Below are positions 28,492 through 31,103 of a DNA stretch of 47,863 nucleotides, piece by piece. Numbering within the stretch: the stretch's first letter is position 1; each line of letters opens with the position of its first letter. The notes beneath the pieces were generated by a model, which worked only from the letters and a program-made list of their open reading frames with translations, was not told the DNA's origin and did not search any database. Source of the DNA: Desulfonatronospira sp. (GTDB lineage Bacteria > Desulfobacterota > Desulfovibrionia > Desulfovibrionales > Desulfonatronovibrionaceae); assembly GCA_003551155.1 (NCBI GenBank), contig PUMA01000180.1:1-47863 (forward strand), written 5' to 3'. Both the position numbers and the translations under genes were made by a program.

Positions 28492-29010
28492 CTACTTGAG
28501 TCTCATCGGTATACCGCTGACCACGAAGTAGGTTTCATGAGAAAGAGATGCCACCTGCTGATTGACCTGCCCCATGATATCTCTGTACCTGCGGGCATGA
28601 ACTTCCCTCGGTACCAGACCCATGCCAAGTTCATTGCTTACAAGTACTATGTCGCAGGGCGGAGATTCAAGGGCCTGGAGCAGATCCTGCAGCTGAATGC
28701 ACTCTTCCCTGTCTGTCAGCCTGTAGTGCATCAAATTGGCTACCCATACAGTAAGGCAGTCAATAATCACCACTTCAGTGCCGGGAAACAGTTCAAACAG
28801 GGTTCTACCCACTTCCAGCGGTTCTTCAATGGTCAGAAAACCTGGGCCGCGTTCTTCCTGGTGCTGGCGGATCCTTTCGCGCATTTCCCTGTCCATGGCT
28901 TCAGCAGTAGCTATGAAAACCTTTTTTTCGTATTCCCGGGTCAGTTGAAGGGCGAACCTGCTTTTTCCGCTTTTACAGCCGCCTGAAATGTAAATGACCT
29001 TGTTTTTCAT
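28492..29010 (-). CDS. cobU: Adenosylcobinamide kinase / adenosylcobinamide-phosphate guanylyltransferase
   Basis: A 172-residue bifunctional enzyme (CobU/CobP) that phosphorylates adenosylcobinamide and then attaches GMP, late in vitamin B12 nucleotide-loop assembly. Evidence is the P-loop GGCKSGKS (residues 10-17), the guanylylation-site histidine H50 in RIRQHQEER, and the conserved VVIIDCLTVWVANL and VSNELGMGLVP segments. No other cobalamin gene is nearby and no B12 riboswitch box was seen in the 194 bp upstream. It probably serves salvage or completes a pathway encoded elsewhere. Confidence 0.93.
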   Translation of the reverse strand: MKNKVIYISGGCKSGKSRFALQLTREYEKKVFIATAEAMDREMRERIRQHQEERGPGFLTIEEPLEVGRTLFELFPGTEVVIIDCLTVWVANLMHYRLTDREECIQLQDLLQALESPPCDIVLVSNELGMGLVPREVHARRYRDIMGQVNQQVASLSHETYFVVSGIPMRLK

Positions 29011-29204: not shown

Positions 29205-30926
29205 TTAACGGATATACCCCTGCTCTTCAAGAAACAAAAAAACCTCCTGGGCGGCTTCAGTAGGAGTCAAACTGGTGGTGTCTATTTTGAGCTCAGGCTG
29301 TTCCGGGGGTTCGTATGGATCGTAAATTCCTGTAACGCCTTTTATGATCCCGGCTCTGGCTTTGGCGTATATGCCTTTTCGGTCCCTTTGCTCGCATATC
29401 TCCAGGGGAGTGCTCATGTAGACCTCAATGAATCCTCCATGAGGAGCGACCATTTCTCTCGCTGTCTGCCTGGACCGGGCAAAAGGGGCGATGGGAGCAC
29501 ATAAGGCTATGCCCCTGTTCTTGGTGATTTCCGAGGCTACAAAGCCTATGCGCTGGACATTGAGATTGCGGTGCTTTCGGGAAAAATCCAGTTCACTGGA
29601 AAGATTCTTGCGCACAATGTCTCCATCCAGAAGAGTTACCGGGCGTTCTCGCATTTCCATGAATCTAACGTACAGAACCTTGGCCAGGGTTGATTTGCCT
29701 GCACCCGAAAGGCCGGTGATAAATACTGTAAAGCCCTGCTCATGACGCGGGGGATAGGCCTTTTTGAGCTCCAGGACCACACCTGGAAAGGAGAACCACT
29801 CAGGGATCTCCAGATCGAATTCCAGCCTCCGCCTCAGCTCTGCAGAGGAGATTTCCTTGACCTGCATGCCGGGGTCTACCTGATCCAGGGGAAAGTACTG
29901 GGCCTTATCCTCCACGTAGACCATTTTTTTCAGGGGGATCATTCTGATGTCGATTTCATCCTCAAGGGACTTGACCAGTTCCTGGGCGGCCCCCAAGGGA
30001 TAGAATCTTTCCTGGCTGTTGCCGGCAAAGGGATCACCGTGGTCTTCACTGACCATGTAGTGGGTGCAACCGTAATTGCGGCGGATAACTGCCTCCCACA
30101 GGGCCTGTCTGGGTCCGGCCAGGCGCCGTTCCAGGGGAAGCAGGCCAAGCTGAACCATGTTTTTGGGAAAATTTTTGATAAATTCCTGGTAGCAGCGGAC
30201 AAGGGTGAAATGGTCCAGGTCATTGGGCCCGGCCCGTCCTGCAACCGGGTGAATAAAAAGATTGGCCCCGGCCTCCCTGGCCCCGCGCAGGACCATCTCT
30301 CTGTGGGCGCAATGCAGGTGCCTTTCAGTCTGGAAGCCGGCCACATTGCGCCAGCCTCTCTGGGTAAAGACCCGGTGTGTTTCGGCCGGAGTGATGCGCA
30401 GTTCTGTAAAGTCGTAGTGCATGGGCAGATGCAGGCCTTCCAGTGTGCCGCTCACAAACCAGGCTTCTGTCTCATGAAAGAGCCTGTATACCCCTGGATG
30501 CCTGCGGGGATCATCGGTTCCGAACACAGCCAGGGCATGCCTTTGTCTGTCCTGCTGCCATACTTCCTTTACTGTGAGCACGGCCAGCATGAAGCCCTCT
30601 TCATCCCTGAGGGCCAGAGGCTGACCTGGTTCAAGCTTTTGGGCCGTATCCATGGATACATCCAGGGTTACTGGAATGGGCCAGACAGTGCCGTCGGATA
30701 GCCGCATATGGTTCAGCACTGATTCGTAATCTTCACGCTCCATATAGCCTGCCAGAGGATAAAAGGCCCGGTTCAGCAGAAGTTCAAGATCGCACATCTG
30801 CCTCTGGTTCAGGTCCAGTGAAAAGTGCCTGGTGGCCTCCTGTTTGAGACGCTCAATCCTGCGAAAGTGGACCAGAAGGTTCTCAGAATGAAGATTTTGT
30901 ATTTTCTCAGAGTTCATGTTAGCCAT
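29205..30926 (-). CDS. ATP sulfurylase-like / APS kinase fusion with altered sulfurylase active site
   Basis: A 573-residue fusion. It has a PUA-like domain (about 20-170), an ATP-sulfurylase-type nucleotidyltransferase domain (180-390) and an APS-kinase domain (397-573). The kinase P-loop GLSGAGKST (405-413), the LDGD motif and KGIYAKAR are intact. In the sulfurylase part the catalytic QTRN motif reads QTER (199-202) and the GRDHAG motif reads SEDHGD (293-298). Both arginines of canonical motifs are therefore glutamate, while HxxH (H205, H208) is kept. It may be inactive, structural, or specific for another anion. The frame is open to 30983; I chose ATG 30926, but 30917 is also possible. Confidence 0.82.
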   Translation of the reverse strand: MANMNSEKIQNLHSENLLVHFRRIERLKQEATRHFSLDLNQRQMCDLELLLNRAFYPLAGYMEREDYESVLNHMRLSDGTVWPIPVTLDVSMDTAQKLEPGQPLALRDEEGFMLAVLTVKEVWQQDRQRHALAVFGTDDPRRHPGVYRLFHETEAWFVSGTLEGLHLPMHYDFTELRITPAETHRVFTQRGWRNVAGFQTERHLHCAHREMVLRGAREAGANLFIHPVAGRAGPNDLDHFTLVRCYQEFIKNFPKNMVQLGLLPLERRLAGPRQALWEAVIRRNYGCTHYMVSEDHGDPFAGNSQERFYPLGAAQELVKSLEDEIDIRMIPLKKMVYVEDKAQYFPLDQVDPGMQVKEISSAELRRRLEFDLEIPEWFSFPGVVLELKKAYPPRHEQGFTVFITGLSGAGKSTLAKVLYVRFMEMRERPVTLLDGDIVRKNLSSELDFSRKHRNLNVQRIGFVASEITKNRGIALCAPIAPFARSRQTAREMVAPHGGFIEVYMSTPLEICEQRDRKGIYAKARAGIIKGVTGIYDPYEPPEQPELKIDTTSLTPTEAAQEVFLFLEEQGYIR

Positions 30927-31103
30927 ATGGTAAATTGGACTTGGGTACTTGCACATGTATACCATAGCATGAAAAATGTCCAATAACCGCCGGGTTAGAA
31001 TGCTTTTTTTTCAGCCTTTGCAGCGAGTTAATGCCTGTCAGCTCGATACGTTATCCCATGCTTTATTTTATATGACTGCGAATCCTGAGAAAAAAAATAC
31101 AGG

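Follow-up and report, generated by a model that had tools for sequence, protein, structure and literature searches.

The Sat–CysC fusion (ATP sulfurylase joined to APS kinase) encoded on the reverse strand of the window, the whole 47,863-nucleotide stretch of DNA that was analysed, is very probably a two-domain APS kinase, supplied with APS by the dissimilatory Sat of its genome and making PAPS for sulfation, its own dead Sat domain being kept as a scaffold. The residue losses, the kinase motifs, the second intact Sat, the pattern across the clade and the purifying selection on the Sat core are read from sequence; absence of sulfurylase activity, activity of the kinase, a role in oligomer formation and the use of PAPS are inferred. 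The source is a 2.0 Mb draft genome; its closest relatives with names are MAGs of Desulfonatronospira (81–89% identity in the fusion protein), placed in the order Desulfovibrionales, an order of sulfate reducers. The fusion gene, its domains and motifs, and its downstream neighbour are located as follows.

29205..30926, reverse strand: Sat–CysC fusion gene, an open reading frame of 573 residues from the ATG at 30926
30432..30878, reverse strand: PUA-like domain (PF14306, Pfam 1.5e-43), N-terminal in the Sat half
29760..30404, reverse strand: ATP-sulfurylase catalytic domain (PF01747, Pfam 1.2e-63), with a degraded active site
30321..30332, reverse strand: QTER replacing QTRN (residues 199–202), the sulfate- and phosphate-contact loop; from ungapped alignment and translation
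30303..30314, reverse strand: HCAH, the retained HxxH (residues 205–208), with Cys206 invariant in the clade; from translation
30219..30239, reverse strand: GRAGPND replacing the GxxKxxD substrate-closing loop, with the Lys lost; from translation and clade columns
30039..30050, reverse strand: SEDH replacing GRDH (residues 293–296); from ungapped alignment and translation
29832..29849, reverse strand: SSAELR replacing SGTxxR (residues 360–365), with Arg365 retained and Gly361 replaced by a Ser that is invariant in the clade; from translation and clade columns
29280..29738, reverse strand: APS kinase domain (PF01583, Pfam 6e-55), with all motifs intact
29688–29714, reverse strand: kinase P-loop GLSGAGKST, intact on translation
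29619–29627, reverse strand: kinase DGD, intact on translation
28492..29010, reverse strand: CobU/CobP-type adenosylcobinamide kinase (NF004469, 171 bits, above cut-off), downstream of the fusion

An alternative TTG start at 30983 would lengthen the fusion by 19 residues, to 592. Its surroundings in the window, comprising cobU, sbcCD-like genes and type IV pilin-like genes, are housekeeping in character, and the CobU/CobP-type neighbour probably has no functional link to it. The gene immediately downstream of the fusion belongs to cobalamin synthesis in the window and apparently also in genome G005, where it is precorrin methyltransferase-like (L134, named by eye); this shared position is possibly due to chance.

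The sulfurylase motifs were placed by phmmer alignments to the ATP sulfurylases of Penicillium chrysogenum (1i2d), Aquifex (2gks) and yeast (1j70), in which the QTER and SEDH letters fall gap-free on QTRN-PMHRAH and GRDH; translation of the exact coordinates 30303–30332 on the reverse strand gives QTERHLHCAH. Where an intact site reads QTRN/HxxH/GRDH, that of the window protein reads QTER/HCAH/SEDH. The residues lost are Arg201, Asn202 and Arg294, equivalent to R197, N198 and R290 of yeast, with both arginines replaced by Glu and the Asn by Arg. Retained are the HxxH histidines, Gln199, Thr200, His296 and Arg365. The original prediction had described these same substitutions and the preserved HxxH, and both descriptions are borne out by the translation and the ungapped alignments. 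A misalignment or a second QTRN within the fusion is ruled out, the residues being unshifted against yeast and Aquifex and the protein containing no other QTRN. Because the orthologues L004 and L005, from separate genomes and with 81–82% identity, also read QTER...SQDH, QTER is neither a product of chance nor a sequencing error.

The exact Glu and Arg letters vary within the window protein's clade, position 202 being R, K, E, Q, A or D and position 294 being E, Q, D, P, G or A. Common to the clade is the loss of positive charge at the motif positions, rather than the gain of particular letters. Across the pocket loops, intact proteins have a mean net charge of +5.1 and clade members one of −0.7; that of the window protein is −1. 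In the Sat of A. vinosum, the sulfate and α-phosphate of APS are contacted by Q199, R201 and N202, PPi by N202, H205, H208 and R365, and the ribose by the GRD loop (PMC3779200); in human PAPSS1, docking has R421 and R522 holding the sulfate, and both histidines of HxxH are indispensable (PMC11697783). Judged by these residue roles, part of the PPi/ATP site is kept in the window protein and the charge is reversed at the sulfate position. The N-terminal Sat domain would thus keep its fold and be unable to bind sulfate/APS and ATP productively, because Arg201, Asn202, Arg294 and the loop lysine are lost and the pocket is net negative.

Annotation models lead to another reading, in which the fusion continues to act as a bifunctional PAPS synthetase whose sulfurylase is slow or altered. 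The NCBIfam model NF004040, named bifunctional sulfate adenylyltransferase/adenylylsulfate kinase, matches over the full length at 844.9 bits, well over its cut-off of 669, and the retained residues listed above would suit residual activity. Such a reading is nevertheless very unlikely, as both sulfate-binding arginines are Glu in a net-negative pocket, the sulfate adenylyltransferase model TIGR00339 falls just under its cut-off (319.4 against 322.95), and such changes are tolerated by none of the stand-alone Sats that were checked.

The APS kinase domain, which had been predicted to be intact, carries its P-loop and DGD and scores above the cut-off of TIGR00455 (173.8 against 138.7), and the kinase motifs are invariant across the compared clade while the sulfurylase residues vary. 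Mean entropies of the Sat and kinase parts are 0.83 and 0.82 in intact proteins, compared with 1.05 and 0.59 in the window protein's clade. Among columns conserved in intact proteins, 29 of 92 in the Sat core are lost in the clade, compared with 8 of 71 for the kinase (p = 0.0024); within the Sat core, these losses are not significantly concentrated in the pocket loops relative to the remainder (p = 0.16). The C-terminal CysC domain would accordingly be the working half, expected to phosphorylate APS to PAPS.

Orthologues with comparable loss of the sulfurylase site are present in the genus, the family and the order, and extend over many families, so that the description of the window gene as an isolated copy was wrong. 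In an even draw of 345 genomes from the phylum, NF004040-type fusions were matched in 32 genomes, 29 of them over the cut-off, and at least one of seven key sulfurylase residues is lost in 48 of the 67 proteins compared. Intact fusions also occur in a second class of the phylum, and in Rhodobacterales and Serratia plasmids.

Several variants were seen alongside these. Fusions of family f74 (L041, L042 and L044–L046) have QTRN and GRDH intact and HxxH changed to HxxQ, with two further Sat genes per genome, and look like an early stage of decay. Most of the otherwise intact fusions among L038–L040 and L098–L109 have GRNH or GRHH for GRDH, the fusion being the only Sat in most of these genomes; going by these letters, the Asp of GRD seems dispensable. 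A broken copy in genome G057 (L029, contig C29) contains 11 in-frame stops, which may be an assembly problem, the assembly being 43% complete. A degraded fusion on plasmid p1 of Desulfolutivibrio sulfodismutans (L115; QEAT, HEGH) lies near O-antigen sugar genes, and its record is named as adenylyl-sulfate kinase only.

In the tree, the degraded fusions of sulfate reducers group together in a single clade (support 90, not starred), which divides into two sub-clades with different lesions. In sub-clade A, H204 is lost in 13 of 14 proteins and R290 survives in 5, whereas in sub-clade B, which includes the window protein, N198, G289 and R290 are lost in all 32 and H204 is kept in 31. A single loss marked by one shared lesion was rejected as the simple story. 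With no lesion common to A and B, the pattern implies an intact ancestor and at least two inactivations, unless residues were regained. The fusions of G172 and Thiobacillus denitrificans appear to be further separate losses, the latter with an unsure placement, on a long branch outside the clade at an unsupported fork.

A search for a canonical Sat elsewhere in the genome had been proposed, and one is present: a second Sat with QTRN-VPHVGH and GRDH adjoins aprB, and an ORF of 118 residues that matched no NCBIfam model (L002:2320–2676) lies between the two. Stand-alone Sats are intact in all 28 cases checked in fusion-bearing genomes, as is that of the window genome itself. No second Sat was found in five draft genomes with degraded fusions (G002, G003, G006, G039 and G049), probably as a result of assembly gaps. 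The Sat sited with aprB would supply APS, and we propose that this supply relaxed selection on the sulfurylase site of the fusion, which then decayed.

The state of the fusion follows the presence of AprB. Among tree rows with known genomes, 41 fusions are degraded and none intact where AprB is present, and 12 are intact and 3 degraded where it is absent. Every AprB-positive genome examined that carries a fusion has a degraded one. All 15 intact fusions of the phylum are in AprB-less genomes (the same AprB search matches strongly in other genomes), and the fusion is the sole Sat in 14 of these 15. The three degraded fusions without AprB belong to two incomplete MAGs and to G172, which has another intact Sat. 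A naive Fisher test of degraded fusion against AprB gives 8e-10 on rows that are related by descent, and the tree holds only 1–2 independent pairs, with no phylogeny-aware significance. The AprB link is therefore a strong pattern with weak phylogenetic replication, and is phylogenetically confounded.

Purifying selection acts on the degraded Sat core no less strongly than on the kinase. Compared with L004 and L005, dN/dS of the window gene is 0.049 and 0.038 in the Sat core and 0.064 and 0.066 in the kinase; synonymous sites are near saturation in these comparisons, and the closer pairs L004/L005 and L007/L009 agree. The PUA-like domain evolves faster than the rest, with dN/dS of about 0.05–0.26. 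These values bear on the reading of the fusion as a pseudogene or decaying relic, to which the eroded active site and the many stops of the G057 copy could point. That reading is the least probable of those considered, given that the window gene has an open frame throughout, dN/dS is low in both halves, the kinase motifs are invariant and the protein is conserved in many families.

Structure modelling, proposed earlier as a check, yielded a confident fusion fold: the AlphaFold2 model has a mean pLDDT of 89.7 and a pTM of 0.80, and residues 233–235 of the substrate loop are its only internal stretch with pLDDT below 50. Its top PDB matches in Foldseek are 1i2d (the closest, TM 0.87), 2gks and 3cr8 (E 1e-51). 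Loss of catalysis with retention of the fold fits a scaffold. The Sat fold would most likely form the oligomer and keep the kinase correctly arranged for activity. Such a role is reported for an Entamoeba homologue, whose kcat fell about 100-fold when the dead Sat-like domain was deleted, with a caveat by the authors on protein stability, and 21- to 60-fold in single interface mutants (PMC13213808).

The same selection could instead reflect a re-purposed Sat pocket, with HxxH and the new invariant residues H184, C206 and S361 forming a ligand site, for example one that senses APS, PAPS or AMP and so modulates the kinase, or one for transferase chemistry on another substrate. All 23 clade members keep H205 and H208 while R201, N202 and R294 drift, the newly fixed letters comprise H184, C206, M211 and S361, and in P. 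chrysogenum the dead domain of a Sat–kinase fusion serves as an allosteric site (PMC13213808). This is unlikely, however: the lost positions show no convergence on new letters (entropy 1.4–2.5 bits), the model shows little order in the substrate loop, the sister sub-clade A has instead lost the second His and so shares no new chemistry, and structural needs alone would explain the purifying selection. The suggestion that the domain acts on a different nucleotidyltransferase substrate has little support, positions 201, 202 and 294 drifting as described, and HxxH with the few new invariant residues leaves it a small opening. A more specific form, judged slightly less probable again, is that in the Desulfovibrionales-centred clade the negative former sulfurylase pocket, with its invariant HxxH and Cys206, senses APS, PAPS, AMP or another nucleotide and thereby controls diversion of dissimilatory APS to PAPS.

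An inactive Sat domain fused to an APS kinase has close parallels. The T. denitrificans protein 3cr8 resembles the window protein in fold, domain order, intact kinase and degraded Sat site, and its genome holds a second Sat, as the window genome does. Its lesions differ: the site reads QARQ and GGEH, and the Asn, the GRD arginine and the second histidine of HxxH are gone while the first Arg remains, whereas the window protein keeps HxxH and has Glu for both arginines. Since T. denitrificans falls outside the clade in the tree, its loss is probably separate. Going by a title cited in PMC13213808, 3cr8 is known as the T. denitrificans two-domain ‘hexameric APS kinase’. The Entamoeba histolytica APS kinase likewise has an inactive Sat-like domain N-terminal to a working kinase (PMC13213808), the arrangement proposed here; its substrate loop is deleted and a linker covers the pocket, whereas the window protein keeps the loop length, loses the Lys and is poorly ordered there in the model. 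Aquifex aeolicus 2gks and the intact NF004040 fusions share architecture and family with the window protein but retain the QTRN/HxxH/GRDH that is degraded in it. P. chrysogenum ATP sulfurylase (1i2d), the closest PDB fold with the same fusion order, is the mirror case, its kinase-like domain being dead and regulatory and its sulfurylase alive. The varied residue loss across the clade, the conserved kinase, the intact Sat elsewhere and the 3cr8 precedent together favour the first option of the original prediction, a dead or structural sulfurylase domain joined to what would be a functional APS kinase.

Sulfation is the likely use of the PAPS, by analogy with the gene contexts of relatives; sulfotransferases would consume it and CysQ would clear the resulting PAP. 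In G045, G040 and G036, as in two genomes whose fusion is intact, cysQ is the immediate neighbour of the fusion. Two sulfotransferase-like genes lie about 11 kb from the fusion of G040, on the same strand, and the fusion, TauE, a sulfotransferase and cysQ are consecutive on a Serratia plasmid. At least one of PF13469 and PF00685 is matched in 9 of 11 relatives searched, the exceptions being G046 and G002 (for which only PF00685 was tried). Recurrent neighbours besides cysQ are mainly generic two-component regulators. A role in sulfated polymer synthesis, as first suggested, is thus plausible from the relatives, but the window's own draft genome gave no match to PF13469 or PF00685, and no cysQ was found beside its fusion. 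Use of PAPS for assimilatory reduction was considered and rejected, there being no clear PAPS reductase; a CysH-like protein on contig C69 of the same genome (L129:1426–2100), also found in relatives, is below all curated cut-offs and has the CC...CxxC pattern of APS reductases.

APS kinases with a dead Sat domain are already known from T. denitrificans and Entamoeba. New here are the breadth of such proteins under a misleading ‘bifunctional’ label, a lesion set in which HxxH is kept, and their link with a dissimilatory source of APS. Annotation pipelines name these fusions bifunctional sulfate adenylyltransferases, although the sulfurylase site is lost in most, so that ‘Sat’ gene counts in sulfate reducers come out too high and sulfate activation is misplaced in metabolic models. 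The degraded fusions form a natural series for asking how an inactive enzyme domain still serves the partner it is fused to, and turn the single-structure curiosity of T. denitrificans into a testable rule, by which dissimilatory Sat and Apr would supply the APS, the fused sulfurylase site would die and the fold would stay.
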